Positions 4,815 through 33,276 of a stretch of 40,111 nt of DNA are shown in pieces. The stretch comes from a virus. Numbering within the stretch: position 1 is the stretch's first letter; the number at the start of each line of letters is the position of its first letter. A model generated the notes under the pieces. The model was not told the origin of the DNA. It made no database searches and saw only the letters and a program-made list of their open reading frames with translations. Location of the stretch: positions 1-40,111 of IMG/VR virus record IMGVR_UViG_3300047289_000043. One strand, written 5' to 3'. A program made the translations under genes and the position numbers.

Positions 4815-6569
4815 TTATCCATATGATCGTTTTCGTAGATAATCATTGGTTGGATTGTCAGAGTTCCTTGGTGACGGCGATGCAACTGCAGTCGTAGACT
4901 TCTGGTTAGATACCTTACTGTTATTGACAACAGTGGTAACATTAGTAGCAGCAGGTGTTGTTTTACCAGCTTCGACTTCTTTAGAGTCGGCAGCAACTTT
5001 ATCAGATAGCTTTGCCTTATCGCCTTCGACTTTACCTGTCGTTGCCACAGCAGCTGTTATCTTCTTTGCTTCTGGAGAAGCTGCTGATACTGTAGCAGCA
5101 GATGCAGGAGTAGATGAACTACCACCAGAGTCTTTACTCTCAGACTTAAATGGATGCCACGGACCAAACTGCTTACCAAGAACACTGAATCCAGGGATCT
5201 CGAAGTTTTTGAACCCATCGAACAGAGACATAATACCATCACCTAATGCACTAAAGAAGTTTTCAAATGGCTTGAAGATGTACTCATTGATAGTCTCACC
5301 TGCCCAGTCTACAAGTTCTTTGATAACCTTAGCATCAATCAAACCAAACGTCAAGAAGTCTAGGATACCACCAAGACCAGCGATAAGTGCTTCGGTGATA
5401 GAACCAGTTTCCATGAATGTATTGAAGCCATCCATAATGCCGTTGACCAGCGCACCAACGATTGCCAGTGGTGCCAATACCTTAGAGAAAATCTTCAACA
5501 ACATCTTAGGGTTGAACAAGAATTTAAATGCACTGGTAATACCTGTCATTAGCATACCACCGATACTCGATAGAGCACCCATTAGGCTGCTGATCAATCC
5601 AGTGATAAACTTCTTTGGACCGCCGAGCAGATTACCTAAGAATCCACCACCTTCTGGTTTGGTTTCTTTCTTTTCGCTGCCACCTTCACCACGAGTATTT
5701 TCTTCGATCTTAGACAACAACTCTAGTTGGCTGTCCATCTTACGACCGTTTTCCAATTCCTCTTCACTGCTTGACATCGCATCAGCTACGGCATTACCTT
5801 GTTCTTTCTTTTCCTTCTTGAACTTGTCGATATCAACAACGTTGCTTTTGGATGATCGTTCAACTCTAGGTTTACCGCTTGGTGTGATTCCGTCTCTGAA
5901 TCTGCTGTCTTTCTGAGCTAAGTCTGCGGCAAGACCTGCTTGCTGTGTAGACTCACTTGAACGACCCACTTGGGATTCACTAAATCCTTGATCTCTTAGA
6001 CGACTTAGTTCTTTATTGTTGTCTTGAACTTTAACAAGAGCATCGTTACCCTTTTCGAACTGATTACCAAAGGTCTTAGATGCTTTCTCAACACCACCAC
6101 CAATACCTTTGACATAGTTCTTGTCTACGTTCAGACGATCCTTAACGTATTGTTGTTTGGCTTCACGCTTTTCGAGAGCAGCATCAGCGATACCGCTGAA
6201 CATACCAGTGCTACCCTTTTTTACGATACCTGTTTTATCTAAGAAGCCACGTAAGGTGAATAACTTCTTGAAATCGTCCACACGTTCTTTAACTGCACCA
6301 CCAGCACCTTTGTAAGACTTAACACGATCAGCCTTTTCGCCGACCGCACCTGTCCCACCACTTTCCTTCATCTGCTGCTTGATGATTTCGGTTAAGTTCT
6401 TTAGGGATGTGTTAAGAATCTCTGTGGCAGTGAGGTTTTTCTTCTCAACTTCCACAGAGTCTTTTGCTAGCTTGTCAGCCATGCCTTCGTTATGAGTTTG
6501 AGCGGATATTCCCGCCCCACCCATCTTGGCTTTGTAGTCTGCCAACTTAATAATTGCTGCCTTTGTCAT
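4815..6569 (-). CDS. Putative tail tape-measure protein (gp29-position)
   Basis: A 584-residue protein, close to the length of T4 gp29 (590), the tail-length determinator. It has a charged, probably helical/coiled N-terminal half (1-300, rich in Lys, Glu and Gln), a long hydrophobic stretch at about 310-450 with several membrane-like helices (for example GGMLMTGITSAFKFLF and LAPLAIVGALVNGIM), and an Ala/Ser/Thr-rich C-terminus ending in NDYLRKRSYG. This layout is typical of tape measures that later insert into the host membrane. Direct sequence identity to gp29 is not something I can show, so the call rests on composition, length and position immediately after the gp26/frameshift unit. The start ATG overlaps the stop codon of the frameshift frame (ATGA). 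A long open frame on the opposite strand (4846-5916) is a shadow. Confidence 0.65.
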   Translation of the reverse strand: MTKAAIIKLADYKAKMGGAGISAQTHNEGMADKLAKDSVEVEKKNLTATEILNTSLKNLTEIIKQQMKESGGTGAVGEKADRVKSYKGAGGAVKERVDDFKKLFTLRGFLDKTGIVKKGSTGMFSGIADAALEKREAKQQYVKDRLNVDKNYVKGIGGGVEKASKTFGNQFEKGNDALVKVQDNNKELSRLRDQGFSESQVGRSSESTQQAGLAADLAQKDSRFRDGITPSGKPRVERSSKSNVVDIDKFKKEKKEQGNAVADAMSSSEEELENGRKMDSQLELLSKIEENTRGEGGSEKKETKPEGGGFLGNLLGGPKKFITGLISSLMGALSSIGGMLMTGITSAFKFLFNPKMLLKIFSKVLAPLAIVGALVNGIMDGFNTFMETGSITEALIAGLGGILDFLTFGLIDAKVIKELVDWAGETINEYIFKPFENFFSALGDGIMSLFDGFKNFEIPGFSVLGKQFGPWHPFKSESKDSGGSSSTPASAATVSAASPEAKKITAAVATTGKVEGDKAKLSDKVAADSKEVEAGKTTPAATNVTTVVNNSKVSNQKSTTAVASPSPRNSDNPTNDYLRKRSYG

Positions 6570-7464
6570 CGGTTAGCCTGTTCTTTTTGTCTTTGTTTTT
6601 CTTCTTCCAGATACTGGATCAACAGCGCTACATAAACTTCTCGCTCGAATGGAATCATTTCTTCAATATCACTAAGCGCATATTTGTGATATTGCATAAG
6701 AGCAAAGTTCATCTTGTAATAGTTCGACAAGTCCTCATGGCAAAGGTTAATTAAAAAAAACTGTCAAGCCCTTTCACAAGCACTGACTGTTCTTTTGCAC
6801 AGATCGGACATTTGTAGTCTAATTTCTTTTCCAGAGACGGCATGGTCTCGAAGAAGTTCTGAATCTTCTTGAATTGGTCTTGGGTAAGACTATCAAGAAA
6901 CTCATTCATCTCTTCTTTTGTGTATTCTTTAGCGTAGTGAACTTCTTCACCAGCGTAGATAGTGTCGATTGATTTAACGACAACCTCAAACACTGCTTCA
7001 ACGTCATCTGTGCTGAGATTTTCAAGTTGTTTAACTAGCTCCAGTGAAGGATACTTCATAATCACACCAACATCATCATACAACTTGATGTTACGGTTAT
7101 GTCCTTCTGGTGTGGAAACAACCAACTTAGTCAAGTCGACTGTAACTTTTACTTTAGCCTTTTCATCTTCGCAAGTGTCGCAGCGTAGGATAAGATCTAC
7201 GGTTTCACCAACGGACTTTGCACGGATTTGTGAGAAGATGTATTCCATATCGAAAGTTGCAAGATCATCTAAGTCAATCTTGTCCATAACACAATGAGAG
7301 ATTAGAGACTTTAGTGTGTCCAACATGATAGTGGTATCTTCGCTTTGCTGTGCAATCAGCAATGCCTTTTGTTCTTTAACTAAGAACGGACGGTACTTAA
7401 CAGCCTTTCCTGTAGAAGGAACGGTTAGTGTATATACTGCAGTTTTCTGAATTGGTAGTGCCAT
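6566..7464 (-). CDS. gp26 -1 frameshift fusion (GT-type tail chaperone), 299 aa
   Basis: Proposed long product of the gp26 gene. Ribosomes slipping back one base on T TTT TTT (complement of 6754-6760), just before the gp26 TAA, continue for 62 codons. The added residues begin LINLCHEDLSNYYK and run through NFALMQYHKYALSDIEEMIP to KEQANR, then stop at a TGA overlapping the next ATG. The extension reads like a real protein: amphipathic, helical, charged at the end, with no stop codon from the slip site onward. The distal part also opens with its own ATG (complement of 6710-6712), but no Shine-Dalgarno sequence precedes it. In many siphoviruses and myoviruses the tail chaperones G and GT are made this way and lie directly before the tape-measure gene, as here. 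The event itself is unproven. Confidence 0.75.
6751..7464 (-). CDS. 26: gp26-like baseplate hub / tail assembly protein
   Basis: A 237-residue protein of the T4 gp26 family (T4-type baseplate protein). Typical features are the N-terminal strand pair (VYTLTVPSTGKAVKYRPFLV), the 'KEQKALLIAQQ' helix, an acidic middle, and two CxxC pairs, RCDTCEDE (Cys95/Cys98) and KCPICAKE (Cys219/Cys222), that could bind one zinc ion. In T4, gp26 is a hub assembly factor. Here its place directly upstream of the tape measure, with a slippery heptamer at its end, suggests that it is the equivalent of the G tail chaperone. AAAGGAT precedes ATG 7464, and gp16 ends 4 bases upstream in the same operon. Confidence 0.85.
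   Translation of the reverse strand: MALPIQKTAVYTLTVPSTGKAVKYRPFLVKEQKALLIAQQSEDTTIMLDTLKSLISHCVMDKIDLDDLATFDMEYIFSQIRAKSVGETVDLILRCDTCEDEKAKVKVTVDLTKLVVSTPEGHNRNIKLYDDVGVIMKYPSLELVKQLENLSTDDVEAVFEVVVKSIDTIYAGEEVHYAKEYTKEEMNEFLDSLTQDQFKKIQNFFETMPSLEKKLDYKCPICAKEQSVLVKGLDSFF
6754..6760 (-). other. Slippery heptamer T TTT TTT for programmed -1 frameshift
   Basis: In the gp26 frame the mRNA reads AGU UUU UUU UAA, so X XXY YYZ is met by U UUU UUU with the stop codon directly in the next position. A Shine-Dalgarno-like AAAGGG (complement of 6769-6774) lies 8 bases upstream and could act as a stimulator, as in bacterial dnaX. Downstream only a weak 5-bp hairpin (CTTGT/ACAAG) was found. Confidence 0.7.
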
Positions 7465-25455: not shown

Positions 25456-28400
25456 ATGTCAATTAACTTTAACGTCGCACCTTATTATGATGATTACAGC
25501 GAAGATGATGATTATCTTCGCATCTTGTTCAGACCTGGATATGCTGTTCAGGCACGTGAGTTAACACAGCTACAAACTATCCTACAAAAGCAAGTCACTC
25601 GTTTTGGTGACCACGTATTTAAGAACGGATCGCAGGTAATCCCTGGATCGGTTAACGTGGACAATACGATTCACTTCGCTAAGTTGGAGAACGTGTATCT
25701 AACTCAGACTGTTAACACTTACCTTAGTCAGTTTGTTGACAAGATCGTCACTGGTCTTGAGTCTGGCGTTAAAGCATTGGTGGTTGATACCTCTGAGTGT
25801 GATTGCGTCGACAAAGTCGAAAGCGATATCCCAACTCTATACTTCAAGCTAGAAAGTCCAGGCGGTACTGAAGGCGAAACAAGTCGTTTCATTCCAGGTG
25901 AGACTCTGGTTGCGTATGCAGCTGACAACACCACACTAACAAACTATCGTTTATCGTCAGATCAAACATCTGATTTGTTTGTGAACATCAGATCGTTCGG
26001 TGACAATGGTGTTGCGGCTACTACCTACTCTAAGAATGCATCAAGTGACGTTCTTGGTTACGGTTATGTTGTTGAAGTCGAAGCTGGTGTTTACTACGTT
26101 GACGGATACTTCATCAAGAACCAAGAAATGCACTTGTACATTGGTCGTTTCACAACAACTCCATCGTACCGTGTTGGTTTCCAAGTAACTGAATCTATCA
26201 TCACTCCTGAAGAACAACCATTGTTGGCAGATAACTCTCAAGGTTCTACCAACTATGCAGCTCCAGGCGCACACCGTTACAAGATTTCCTTATCTCTAGT
26301 TAAGCTACCACTTGACTCTACTGACGACATTCGATTCATCGAATTGCTACGTGTTGTTAGTGGTCGTGTTCAGCACAAGATTCAAACATCTTCCTATGCT
26401 CAACTAGAAAAGACATTGGCTCGTCGTACATTCGATCAGTCTGGTAACTATGAAGTCAGCAAATTCAAATTGACATCACGTGAGCATTTGAACAGCAATG
26501 GAAATGGTGTTTACCCTCCAATCCCAGATAATGGCGTCCTTGTTGCTGATCAAGTTTACGGCGACGAAGACAAATTTGTTATTGCTGTGGATCCAGGGAA
26601 AGCGTATGTAGAAGGTTTCGAAATCGAATCTACAGCTACCCAATTTATCAGTATTGATAAAGCCAGAGAAAACACTATCACTGGTGATGAAGGTGGGCAT
26701 ATTGTTCGTCAAGATGACTATCCTATCGCCACCCCAGTTGGTAACTACCTAGTTGTCAATAACGTATTCAGCTACCCAGACCTAACCGCATTCCCTCTAG
26801 TTTACTTGTACAACAAGTCTAGAGCACCAGCAGGTGGTTCTGCTTTAACAGACGGCACTCCTCCAGTTTCTGGAAAGGTTGGTACTGCTCGTGTTAAGGC
26901 ATTCCAACTATATTCTTCTGCATACACCACAGGTGATGCTACTCAATTCATGCTTGGTTTGTTTGACGTTCAAATGGACACAGACTCTACCACTGGACAG
27001 AAGTATAACTTCGCATCTACAGTTAAGTCTGTTGCTGGCGCAACCAGCGGAACAAACACATTCACTTGTGATGTAGTTCCAGGCTTCTTCCAAATTGTTG
27101 GTGCAGCTTCTAGCACTAGCGGTAACAAGACTGTTACTGGTGTGGGTTCTCTATTCGTTGACCAACTAGCCGTTGGTGATATTCTTTACATCAACGGTAC
27201 TGCTGCTGGTGTTATCCCTGCATATGCTGCTGGTACAGCTGGCGTTCAATCTAACGTGTCTCTATTGTTGGAAAATAATGCTCCAGCAACTCTTTCTGGT
27301 ATTGCAACAGTATTCCGTGCAGAACTACAAGATCCAAAGTACGATTCTCTAGTGTTCAAGTCTGAATTCAGAACATTGAAAACCCTACGTGGTTTGGATA
27401 CTGCAGGTAATGACACAATTAAGTCAAGCACCCAAACTGTTCGTCGTAAACTAACAGCTAACGCTGACGCAAGCAACCTATCTTATACATTAACTTCTCC
27501 GTCGGAATTCTTCGATTCAGTTCAGTCACTGGCTAACTATACATTGTTTGACGATACAACCAAGACTTTCGTTGCCATCACTGGTAGCCATATCAGTTTG
27601 ACGTCAGATAGAAAAACATTCACAGTATCTGTAAGTGGTGCAGGTCTAACTGCATCCAGAGCATATACTCTTATCGCAAGTATTGTTCAAACTGGAACAC
27701 CAGCTGGTGAGCGCACCAAGACAATGAACTTGGATTATGCACACTTGGTGACTGGTAAGAAAGAAGTTAGCAACACAGTTATTACTCTGCCACATTCTGA
27801 CGTTCTACGAATCAAAGACATTCGTGTAACACCAGGAAATTTTGACACATACTCTGCATCAAATTCTGTAAGTATTAAAGACAAGTACATCTTTGATGAT
27901 GGTCAGCGTCAAACTCACTATCAGCAAGCTACGCTTACTCTAATTCCAAACAGCGCACCTCCTTCTGGTGCAATCACAGTTACGTATGATTACTTTACCC
28001 ACACTGGTAGCGGTAACTACTTCTCTGTAAACTCTTATGATGCAGCTATTGCAAACACAGCAAACAACTTCACATACTCTGATATCCCTACCTATGCAGT
28101 TAAGGGTACAGATGGTAAAACTGAAACTGTTTACCTAAGCGATGTTATTGACTACCGTCCAGTTATCGGCGGCTCCAATACATTCGCACCAGAGTTGCCA
28201 AAGATCGGCGAAGACTTCAACACTAGCTTGGCTTACTACTTGCCACGTTTCGACAAGATCGTTCTAGATAACGTTGGTCGTTTCAATGTATTGAAAGGTA
28301 TTCCTGCTCTTGATCCAATTGAACCAAAGGATCCAAAAGAAGGTATGGTAATGTGCTCCATTTACGTACCTGCCTTTACACGTTCCACTAAAGAGATTCG

Positions 28401-31400
28401 TGTATATCCACGTGATAACAAACGTTACACAATGAAGGACATTGGTAACTTGGAACGTCGTATCCAAAACTTGGAATACTACGTTTCCCTAACTCTACTT
28501 GAGCAAGAGACAGCATCGCTTTCCATTAAGGATGCCAACACAGGTCTTGATCGCTTCAAGAACGGTTTCATTGTTGACCAATTTACTGGTCACGGTGTTG
28601 GTGACGTTAAGAACATCGACTACCGTATTGCTGTTGACCCAGCACGTGGCGAACTACGCCCAATGCACTATACTGATGCACTAGACTTGATCGAAGACGT
28701 CACTTCTTCCGATGAGCGTTTTGCTCAAAGCTACAAGAAGAACGGCGACATCATTACCCTTCCATACACAACATCGTTGTTTATCTTCAACCCTAACGGT
28801 ACACGTTCTATTGACGTTAACCCATACAAGGTTGCAGCTTTTAAGGGTGAAGTTCAGTTGATCCCAGAAGGCGACAACTGGAAAGATACAGATCGTCGTC
28901 CAGATTTGCAAGTTACTGATGACAACAACTCAGATGCTATTAAATACATGGCTGAAAAGTTGGGTGTTACTGGAACAGTTTGGAACCAATGGCAAACTCA
29001 GTGGACAGGTTCTACCTCCACAACTTCTACATTCCAAACTGGTAACCCTAACGCACGTCGTCAAACTGTTACTGGCTACGCAACAACTACTACTGTTGAC
29101 ACAGGTACTCAGTCCAGAACTGGTCTTCGCACTTCTGCAACAGAAACAGTTAACACTCAAGACTACGGCGACCGTGTTGTAGACATCTCGTTTGCAGAAT
29201 ACATGAGAGCACGTCCAGTGACTTTCGTTGTTAGCAACTTGAAGCCAAGCGGTAAATTTTATCCATTCTTCGATGGCGACTCAGTTGCTGAGTATGTAAT
29301 TCCTGCTGATGTGTTCAAGGTTACCAGATTGTCTGGCACTTCAATCATGAACTTCGATGCAGAGTCTACGAAGGATCGTGTTATTGCTGGTGATGCTGAG
29401 CGTACTGAGGATGGTCAGGCTCAAATTGCTTACCAGATCGGTGACGTTCTACAGAATGATGCCCATACTCCATGTACTATCCAAACAATCACTCAGATTA
29501 CAGACCCACTAGGTGCAGCAACCCTAACGTTGACTGTTGACCAGATCTCTGGTGTTCGTGTTGGTCACCACGTTGAGTTGTATAACTTGAACGCTGGTAA
29601 GGTTGTGCAGAACATTGTTTCTTACGACCCAGTTAAGAAGACTCAAGTTACTATCACCAACAGAGCGTTGCCAACTGCCAATGAATTGAACAACAGAAAG
29701 TTCAAAGTCTCAGCAGTTACTCCATCTGTTGTTGGTCTAACAACTGGTACAGGTACTATTACCCTAACCACTCTAGATGGTAAAAAGATCCCATCCTTCA
29801 GCGCATACAACAAGTCTGCATACAAAGGTACTGATGGCGGTAAGTTGACACGTCTACGTGCTTCTTGCGTTGTTGTTCAAGATGGTGTTATTGACGCCAC
29901 AGACACTCTTGGCGTTGCACAAATTCAAGACTTGTTCGTTGCTAACATTAAGAATGGCTTCTCAATCGGTGAGTCCCTAACTGGTAAGATCAACTTTGCT
30001 GGTGGTACAAGAAACCGTGTAACGTTAACTTCTGTTAATGGTACAATTTCTGGTATCCCAACAATGAAGCAGTTTGGAGATCCAATTAGAACTGACGTTA
30101 ACGGTTCCACTGCTGGTGTGTTCAAACTACCAAATAGTGATGCTAAGAGATTCCGCACTGGTGAGCGTGATTTTAAGTTGACAGACAACCAGTCTAACAG
30201 CGACGCAAACTTCGACTCGAAAGGTAGTGCAACATACTACTCACAAGGTATCACTCTATCGAAAGAAGCTACTGTTGTTAACAGCCGTACTGTTACCTTC
30301 ACACAAGACCGCTTGTATGAGTCTATCCCAGTTCGTCGTGTTTCCACTTCAACTCGTGTTCTATACTCATACTACACTGGTCACGATCCAATCGCTCAAA
30401 CCTTCGTTGTATCTGCAACAGGTGGTGCGTTTGTAACTCACGTTGACTTGTATTTCTCTGAAGCAGGCACTCGCCCTGTAACAGTTGAACTTAGAACAAC
30501 GAATATGAATATCCCGTCAACTAAGATCATCCCACTATCACAAGTTACAAAGACTCCAAACAAGATTAAGACTTCTGAAGATGGTTCTGTTGCAACACGA
30601 TTCACTTTCCAAGCCCCTATCTACTTGCAAGATAACGAGATGTATGCATTGGTCGTTAAGACTGACCAACCTGGATGCCAATTGTTCGTTTCTGAAGTCG
30701 GTAAGGAAGACATCTTAACTGGTAACATTGTTACAGTTCAGCCTTTGACTGGTTCTTTGTACTTGTCTCAGAACAGTAAAGAATTTGAAATCAACCCATT
30801 GTTGGATATGAAGTTCCGCATGCACAAAGCAGACTTCGTGACCAACACAGTTGCCCAACTTCAACTACGTGCTCAACCACCAAAGCGTTTTGCTCTAGAC
30901 GAAAACCCATTTGAAGTTAGCCCAAGTACTGACATTGTGCGTGTTCATGCTCGTCGTCACGGATTCTCTGCAGATGACATCGTTCTTCTAGACGGTATTG
31001 AAGAATGGATCGATGAAGAGGCAGGCACTAAGAAGTATTACGGTGCAAGCAATAACACTTATGGTATTCCAGGTGAGTTGTTGAATGGACCGCATACAGT
31101 TCTCGCTGACGGTATTGATATTGATTCGTTCTGTATCAGAATCCAAACAACAGATGAGTATCTAGACACTGAAACTTCTACTCTATCACCAAACAGATTG
31201 ATCACCAATGCTGCTGGAACGCAGAACGACCTAACAGGAACAACGTTCGACGTCACTGTCCAGTCTATTATGGACGAATTTGTTAAGGGTAACTACGGTG
31301 GTACTGGTGTCACATGCTCTCGTCAACTAATTCTTGACGAAGTGTTCTTGAAGAGCGATAGCATTGTGACTAGCGACAGCACACTAGACTGGTCTGTTCA

Positions 31401-33276
31401 GGCTATGTCTACTGATGATAGCATCACAGGCTACCAAGCAATCAGCGAAAATTCTAACTTCTCGTTTGGTTCTAGAAAAATTATTCGCTCGTTCGAGAAT
31501 GAAGAACTTCTAGCTCAAACAGCTGACATTATCTCCAGAAAACCATCGTTGACATATCGTGCTAAGTTTAGCACTACAAACCCTAACGTATCACCAATTA
31601 TCGACTTGCAGAAGATTTCTTCTTATGTGATTAGAAACTTGGTAAATAGCACAACAGAAGAACAAACTAACATCATCGGTGTTGACGACAGAACTTTGTT
31701 GAAGGCTAATGACGTTGTGGCTACAGACATCGACGCAACCGTAGCAACTGGAAACATCTACTCTTACTTCTTGAGTAACCCATTCCAGTTCTCTGCTGGT
31801 ACATACACATATACCACTAGCGCTGATGGTCCTACCTATACAGTTACTCCTGTCCAATCAACTTGGAAGTTTGATGGATCTGGTAGTGGACAAACCACAC
31901 AACCACATCAAAGATTGCAGGTTGGTGACTTGCTGTATAAGGCAGACACAACTACATTAAACATGAACACAGCTTCTCAATTCTATGGTTGGGTTTCTGC
32001 GGTTAATTCTACTAACATTACAGTTACTAAAGCTCTAGTTGGTGGATTGACTGGTACAGCAACTCTTGCGCCAGGAACTGGTGTAGCAGTTAACTTCTTG
32101 GTTATCAGCAAGTACGTTTACGGGGATGCATCCGCTGCATTTACTTCTAAAGCACCTTCTGGAACTTTGTTGTATAACAACGCTGGCACTCTAATCGGAG
32201 AAGTTGATACTGTCTCTAGCGCAACTCAATTAGTATTGAAGTCTGCAGCTCAGGTTGGTAATGGTGTGTTTACAAACTTCGCAACTCACGCACCTCAAGC
32301 ATGGAGTGTTGGTACTCAAGAAGCAAAGCTAACCTTCTCTAATGTTAATGGATATGGTCAAATCACCACAAACATTGACGTTGCAGATAACTTGTTGTCA
32401 GTGGCTAAAGCAGGTAAGTATATCTACTTGACTGGCTTGGCGAGCGGCATTGATGGTAAGTACCTAGTTCGTAGCGTTGATGTTGCCACTGACTCTACTG
32501 TCTATGTTGGTAACGAAGAAGGCGATAAGATCACGCTACAAGTATCTCCAGCATTCACGTTCGCTGGTGCAGCAACTACATACACCGTTGATTTGATCAA
32601 TGACTACTTGTACCTAACTGGCGCTGGTACTATCACTTCCAGCACTGCAAACGGTACTGTAACTGGTGCGTCAACCACATTCACTACTCAAGTAGCTGTT
32701 GGTGACGTTCTAACTACAAGATTGACTGGTGGCGATACGTTGGCTGGTGTTCTTGGTACAACAACTTATACACCTATCGGTGTAGTTGGTGCAGTCTCTT
32801 CTGCAACAGGAATTACGATAGCAAACGGTGCAAATGCTGGTGCTACTGTTACTGGTTCTTCATACGCAATCAGAAAGCCAGCTACTAGCTTCAAGATTGC
32901 TCAACTAGACAAGTTTGTTGAAGACTGGGCACCGATTGGTTCTTCCAACTACGCAAACTACATCACTCGTCCGTTGGTTATCTCTAACCCAGCCGACTCG
33001 TTCAAGATTATGTTCGACGCTAACGTTCCATTGAATACATCTATTCTTGTATATTACAAAACATGGAGTGGAACAGTTGACATAAATAATCTAAACTACA
33101 CAGATACTGGATTCTCAGTAACTACTATCGACCCGATCGATACGTTTAGTGAACGAATGATCGACATCGAAGACATCACTCCATACAATAACTTGGTGGT
33201 GAAGATTGTCATGAAGTCGACCAACCCTGCTAACGTACCAAAGATTAAGAATCTAAGAATCATCACCCACTCATAA
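25456..33276 (+). CDS. Giant structural protein with DUF4815-like N-terminus (baseplate/tail-fibre complex)
   Basis: A 2606-residue virion protein. Its N-terminus (INFNVAPYYDDYSEDDDYLR, ILFRPGYAVQARELTQLQTI, then TRFGDHVFKNGSQVIPG) is the DUF4815 signature of large structural proteins in cyanophages and relatives. Further parts are a Ser/Thr linker around 1190 (WNQWQTQWTGSTSTTS), FDGDSVAEYVIPADVF, and a conserved block at about 1625-1800 (YTGHDPIAQTFVVSATGGAF; PIYLQDNEMYALVVKT; LTGSLYLSQNSKEFEINPLL). Two copies of a 'TVTGxxxxFxxQxAVGDxL' module occur near residues 557 and 2400. The protein ends with a beta-rich domain. It is at the place of T4 gp10/gp11 after gp8, but sequence relation to those is not visible. 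Probably it is the adaptor connecting the baseplate to fibres. Confidence 0.8.
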   Translation: MSINFNVAPYYDDYSEDDDYLRILFRPGYAVQARELTQLQTILQKQVTRFGDHVFKNGSQVIPGSVNVDNTIHFAKLENVYLTQTVNTYLSQFVDKIVTGLESGVKALVVDTSECDCVDKVESDIPTLYFKLESPGGTEGETSRFIPGETLVAYAADNTTLTNYRLSSDQTSDLFVNIRSFGDNGVAATTYSKNASSDVLGYGYVVEVEAGVYYVDGYFIKNQEMHLYIGRFTTTPSYRVGFQVTESIITPEEQPLLADNSQGSTNYAAPGAHRYKISLSLVKLPLDSTDDIRFIELLRVVSGRVQHKIQTSSYAQLEKTLARRTFDQSGNYEVSKFKLTSREHLNSNGNGVYPPIPDNGVLVADQVYGDEDKFVIAVDPGKAYVEGFEIESTATQFISIDKARENTITGDEGGHIVRQDDYPIATPVGNYLVVNNVFSYPDLTAFPLVYLYNKSRAPAGGSALTDGTPPVSGKVGTARVKAFQLYSSAYTTGDATQFMLGLFDVQMDTDSTTGQKYNFASTVKSVAGATSGTNTFTCDVVPGFFQIVGAASSTSGNKTVTGVGSLFVDQLAVGDILYINGTAAGVIPAYAAGTAGVQSNVSLLLENNAPATLSGIATVFRAELQDPKYDSLVFKSEFRTLKTLRGLDTAGNDTIKSSTQTVRRKLTANADASNLSYTLTSPSEFFDSVQSLANYTLFDDTTKTFVAITGSHISLTSDRKTFTVSVSGAGLTASRAYTLIASIVQTGTPAGERTKTMNLDYAHLVTGKKEVSNTVITLPHSDVLRIKDIRVTPGNFDTYSASNSVSIKDKYIFDDGQRQTHYQQATLTLIPNSAPPSGAITVTYDYFTHTGSGNYFSVNSYDAAIANTANNFTYSDIPTYAVKGTDGKTETVYLSDVIDYRPVIGGSNTFAPELPKIGEDFNTSLAYYLPRFDKIVLDNVGRFNVLKGIPALDPIEPKDPKEGMVMCSIYVPAFTRSTKEIRVYPRDNKRYTMKDIGNLERRIQNLEYYVSLTLLEQETASLSIKDANTGLDRFKNGFIVDQFTGHGVGDVKNIDYRIAVDPARGELRPMHYTDALDLIEDVTSSDERFAQSYKKNGDIITLPYTTSLFIFNPNGTRSIDVNPYKVAAFKGEVQLIPEGDNWKDTDRRPDLQVTDDNNSDAIKYMAEKLGVTGTVWNQWQTQWTGSTSTTSTFQTGNPNARRQTVTGYATTTTVDTGTQSRTGLRTSATETVNTQDYGDRVVDISFAEYMRARPVTFVVSNLKPSGKFYPFFDGDSVAEYVIPADVFKVTRLSGTSIMNFDAESTKDRVIAGDAERTEDGQAQIAYQIGDVLQNDAHTPCTIQTITQITDPLGAATLTLTVDQISGVRVGHHVELYNLNAGKVVQNIVSYDPVKKTQVTITNRALPTANELNNRKFKVSAVTPSVVGLTTGTGTITLTTLDGKKIPSFSAYNKSAYKGTDGGKLTRLRASCVVVQDGVIDATDTLGVAQIQDLFVANIKNGFSIGESLTGKINFAGGTRNRVTLTSVNGTISGIPTMKQFGDPIRTDVNGSTAGVFKLPNSDAKRFRTGERDFKLTDNQSNSDANFDSKGSATYYSQGITLSKEATVVNSRTVTFTQDRLYESIPVRRVSTSTRVLYSYYTGHDPIAQTFVVSATGGAFVTHVDLYFSEAGTRPVTVELRTTNMNIPSTKIIPLSQVTKTPNKIKTSEDGSVATRFTFQAPIYLQDNEMYALVVKTDQPGCQLFVSEVGKEDILTGNIVTVQPLTGSLYLSQNSKEFEINPLLDMKFRMHKADFVTNTVAQLQLRAQPPKRFALDENPFEVSPSTDIVRVHARRHGFSADDIVLLDGIEEWIDEEAGTKKYYGASNNTYGIPGELLNGPHTVLADGIDIDSFCIRIQTTDEYLDTETSTLSPNRLITNAAGTQNDLTGTTFDVTVQSIMDEFVKGNYGGTGVTCSRQLILDEVFLKSDSIVTSDSTLDWSVQAMSTDDSITGYQAISENSNFSFGSRKIIRSFENEELLAQTADIISRKPSLTYRAKFSTTNPNVSPIIDLQKISSYVIRNLVNSTTEEQTNIIGVDDRTLLKANDVVATDIDATVATGNIYSYFLSNPFQFSAGTYTYTTSADGPTYTVTPVQSTWKFDGSGSGQTTQPHQRLQVGDLLYKADTTTLNMNTASQFYGWVSAVNSTNITVTKALVGGLTGTATLAPGTGVAVNFLVISKYVYGDASAAFTSKAPSGTLLYNNAGTLIGEVDTVSSATQLVLKSAAQVGNGVFTNFATHAPQAWSVGTQEAKLTFSNVNGYGQITTNIDVADNLLSVAKAGKYIYLTGLASGIDGKYLVRSVDVATDSTVYVGNEEGDKITLQVSPAFTFAGAATTYTVDLINDYLYLTGAGTITSSTANGTVTGASTTFTTQVAVGDVLTTRLTGGDTLAGVLGTTTYTPIGVVGAVSSATGITIANGANAGATVTGSSYAIRKPATSFKIAQLDKFVEDWAPIGSSNYANYITRPLVISNPADSFKIMFDANVPLNTSILVYYKTWSGTVDINNLNYTDTGFSVTTIDPIDTFSERMIDIEDITPYNNLVVKIVMKSTNPANVPKIKNLRIITHS

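Follow-up and report, generated by a model that had tools for sequence, protein, structure and literature searches.

A predicted programmed -1 frameshift at the end of a gp26 homologue, giving two tail-assembly chaperones in a T4-like phage

In the viral DNA studied here a programmed -1 ribosomal frameshift very probably yields two tail-assembly chaperones from one gene, as far as can be judged by sequence comparison. The window, i.e. the whole stretch analysed, is a 40,111-base IMG/VR viral record, and its source can be classified from its sequence as a T4-like myovirus. It encodes homologues of gp32, gp2, gp4, gp48, gp53, a gp5-type hub lysozyme, gp25 and gp6, the T4 gene numbers being assigned from family names. 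The only matches of a 2606-aa ORF on the plus strand (25456-33276) are to the PHROGs phrog_358 and phrog_877, both of unknown function. The features around the predicted slip site, all on the minus strand, are the following.

6751..7464, minus strand: gp26 homologue (putative TAC-N), zero-frame product of 237 aa; PF12322 T4_baseplate 2.1e-61, phrog_150 baseplate hub 2.8e-65, profile match to T4 gp26
6769..6774, minus strand: SD-like AAAGGG, probable internal stimulator, 8 nt before the T run; conserved anti-SD pairing
6754..6760, minus strand: slippery heptamer T TTT TTT with TAA directly after it; T TTT TT(C/T/A) in the relatives
6566..6754, minus strand: -1 extension, 62 codons and TGA, homologue of the T4 gp51 C-terminus (putative TAC-C); pN/pS 0.19 in the -1 frame (uncorrected)
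4815..6569, minus strand: probable tape-measure gene, 584 aa, homologous to the downstream ORFs of relatives

The gp26 coding sequence (7464-6754) is closed by the stop TAA at 6753-6751, and its 3' end reads AGT TTT TTT TAA (6762-6751), with the heptamer in phase and within a run of eight T's (6760-6753). The -1 frame continues through codons 6754-6569 (peptide LINLCHEDLSNYYK...QANR) to a TGA at 6568-6566, which overlaps the ATG (6569-6567) of the 584-aa ORF; the predicted fusion of gp26 and the extension has 299 aa. This arrangement, including AAAGGG eight bases upstream of the slip site (6774-6769), had been described in an earlier note on this DNA, and both sequence and coordinates agree with the description. 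No second T8 occurs on either strand of the window (dinucleotide shuffles average 4.0), and a check of the last 24 nt of 31 major window genes showed an X XXY YYZ heptamer in gp26 only. An open -1 frame is by itself weak evidence, because the frame stays open in 116 of 20000 shuffles of the stretch (0.6%), and because in many window genes the -1 frame is open only because the following gene lies in it. The weight of the case for frameshifting comes from the relatives rather than from the open frame alone.

By the earlier note, relatives lacking the T run or having stops in the -1 frame would speak against a frameshift. We compared 83 relatives readable across the junction, taken from IMG/VR and from four annotated cyanophages. 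The in-phase T TTT TTN is kept at the end of gp26 in 83/83; counting the window, 63 sequences have TTTTTTC, 20 (the window among them) TTTTTTT and one TTTTTTA, and runs of six or more T's occur 46 times in the other 75 kb of the same genes. The -1 frame is open and homologous in 82/83 relatives, for at least 57 codons beyond the stop; in the sole exception (L043) a -1 stop follows after 19 codons, in the last bases of the contig. A single gene could in principle have been split by a wrong T count introduced during sequencing or assembly, and the window, an IMG/VR record, contains a homopolymer of the error-prone kind at this place. However, the reading frame breaks at exactly this codon in the 83 other sequences too, contigs and isolates alike, and the versions with six T's and a C are not long homopolymers; this explanation is hardly credible, and the isolates with the same frame break refute it. 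It could also be supposed that RNA polymerase slips on the T8 and adds a base, the edited mRNA then encoding the fusion. The eight consecutive T's of the window clade are long enough for some polymerase slippage, but six T's and a C, which is all that 63 of the 84 sequences carry, are too short for it to be efficient, and the relatives with TTTTTTC keep the phase of the heptamer and the SD-like element, both marks of ribosomal slippage. We consider polymerase slippage improbable.

The signal extends to distant isolates, phages of Pseudomonas, Agrobacterium, Aeromonas, Vibrio, Pelagibacter and Synechococcus: T TTT TT(C/T) is kept in 8/10 and the -1 frame is open in 10/10. In the other two, Vibrio phage K445 (near 3082) and Kuttervirus SE14 (near 2188), CTTTTC / ATTTTC replaces the T6 heptamer, and the -1 frame after gp26 is nevertheless open for 53-58 codons, therefore another signal or mechanism can serve there.

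The earlier note had also suggested a synonymous-rate comparison of the -1 codons, and its outcome favours translation in this frame. We calculated pN/pS within the window's clade (16 members), treating the 14 extension codons that precede the first ATG separately from the remainder. The two segments gave 0.24 and 0.18 in the -1 frame, 1.6 and 0.75 in the zero frame, and 0.9 and 3.2 in the +1 frame. Because the sequences are related and the proportions are saturated and carry no correction, the evidence is the contrast between frames and not the values themselves. By this contrast, purifying selection on the -1 frame starts at the first codon past the predicted slip. The finding bears on the possibility that the gp51 part is made on its own, as a small protein, from an internal start or by re-initiation past the gp26 stop. 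Several GenBank records annotate it as a separate gene: S-RSM4 (g51) and Sf-CH8 have a gene of 43-44 aa with an internal start, HTVC008M also lists it separately, and an ATG does lie 14 codons into the extension. This ATG, however, has no SD before it, as the earlier note had observed, and is absent from many relatives; T4 gp51, moreover, is a full-length protein with a gp26-like part and the C-domain. Selection already acts on the codons preceding the first ATG, so that a small protein with its own start fails to explain the data, and we regard it as very improbable. The expectation that gene callers would miss the extension or call it separately held for both outcomes: the annotations of S-WAM1 and ACG-2014e leave a gap at this place, and S-RSM4 and Sf-CH8 have the small gene. 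In S-CRM01 a gp51-like gene begins right at the end of gp26.

The extension can be identified with some precision. The -1-frame peptide (63 residues) matches PHROG 634, 'baseplate hub assembly catalyst' (gp51), at 2.2e-27, and by tblastn it was found in 566 phage records, mostly of cyanophages. Its second match, to the end of PHROG 150 (gp26; 6e-6), suggests that both parts are joined in some of the database members. With hhalign, the profile of the fused product aligned with T4 gp26 as far as the FF encoded at the slip site (E 2.3e-16). It also aligned with T4 gp51, whose residues 6-244 were covered with the junction included (N-domain and C-domain, E 4e-10); residues 200-244 of T4 gp51 matched the extension (E 4e-6). 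Since T4 gp51 aligns over nearly its full length with the fusion, it is the counterpart of the frameshift product, encoded as a gene of its own. On these homologies we assign gp26 alone as the putative TAC-N and the predicted fusion as gp26-gp51 (TAC-NC). The pair likened in the earlier note to G/GT is thus supported as a frameshift pair, and the assignment of the extension becomes more specific, namely the C-terminal part of T4 gp51. In Acinetobacter phage Berthold gp26 and gp51 are already annotated as tape-measure assembly chaperones. A PDB sequence search with the gp26 profile gave no match, and the AlphaFold model of gp26 (pLDDT 85) had no significant PDB match in Foldseek; the highest probability among the matches listed was that of the HK97 tail assembly chaperone 2ob9 (0.72; TM 0.49 by target length, E 0.99), a likeness of the modelled fold which is suggestive only.

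The next gene had been proposed to encode the tape measure. The 584-aa ORF itself had no direct match in PHROG or Pfam or by tblastn against phages, and its family profile had no match to T4 gp29. Homologues of it follow the slip site in the relatives; where readable, these downstream ORFs usually start within a few bases of the extension stop, and one of the homologues (in L006) matches several tape-measure PHROGs (best 3.8e-9). Through homologues of this kind the 584-aa ORF is likely to be the tape measure.

We infer the following mechanism. Most ribosomes would terminate at the TAA, with gp26 (TAC-N, 237 aa) as their product. A smaller fraction would pause at the internal SD-like AAAGGG, perhaps also at the stop beside the heptamer, and slip on U UUU UUU, the two Phe tRNAs re-pairing in the -1 frame, and would then append the 62-residue gp51 domain to give the 299 aa TAC-NC. 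Until tail-tube assembly, both forms would presumably cover the product of the adjacent downstream gene, the likely tape measure. The SD-like element is a plausible stimulator; in E. coli dnaX, -1 slipping is promoted by an internal SD at comparable spacing. Almost all sequences have a purine-rich RRGG approximately 8-12 nt before the heptamer, and with 8-mers the mean anti-SD pairing is strongest at centre -11 (-5.2 kcal/mol). Pairing in the last 24 nt of gp26 averages -5.5 kcal/mol, versus -2.0 in other gp26 segments; synonymous shuffling, with codon usage pooled over loci, averages -4.8 kcal/mol, with 0/40 replicates as strong as observed, thus the element comes mostly from conserved Glu/Lys-Gly, with codon bias in addition. 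Folding of eight sequences revealed no consistent downstream hairpin or pseudoknot (z -2.1 to +1.0), and an Rfam search gave no match. In the window's clade (L005-L019) the heptamer directly adjoins the stop (TTTTTTT TAA/TGA), whereas in most relatives one or more codons lie between slip site and stop (TTTTTTC GTN TAA). In this clade slow termination could therefore stimulate or control the -1 slip, a suggestion to which we give a small chance.

It is useful to compare this arrangement with known systems. Both halves are homologous to the products of T4 genes 26 and 51, T4 gp51 corresponding to the whole fusion; T4 differs in having two separate genes, on opposite strands, and no frameshift. 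The lambda gpG/gpGT pair likewise consists of a short and a -1-extended chaperone encoded just before the tape measure, and is likened here by arrangement; its slip site is GGGAAAG, compared with U7 in the window. Vladimirov, Gautam and Davidson reportedly identified the tail-assembly chaperones of T4-like phages (Virology, 2022). Among later papers, PMC12846349 cites Vladimirov et al. 2022 for the poly-T -1 signals in the TAC-N genes of this group, and PMC10885494 cites the same work for those T4-like phages in which the short and the fused form have separate genes instead. The frameshifted gp26/gp51 pair is thus already known in T4-like phages, and only this phage record is new. As these papers present them, the T4-like TAC-N/TAC-NC pairs share the gp26/gp51 homologues and the open -1 frame, and their TAC-N genes end in a poly-T site for the -1 slip; the window, its near clade and HTVC008M differ in that the heptamer adjoins the stop (TTTTTTT TAA). 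Pseudomonas phage Adele, a member of the Vandenendeviridae and hence of a different family from the window phage, has GTTTTT at the end of TAC-N, with the -1 frame open and the tape measure following (PMC12846349).

Frameshifting explains why the small gene is truncated or skipped in several of the marine T4-like phage records examined, and it gives the 'baseplate hub assembly catalyst' label a new meaning: the C-terminal domain of a chaperone for tail assembly. If slow termination did play a part in the window's clade, it would couple the TAC-N:TAC-NC ratio to release-factor availability. The frameshift lineages and the T4 lineage, in which the long form has its own gene, represent two routes to the same two proteins.
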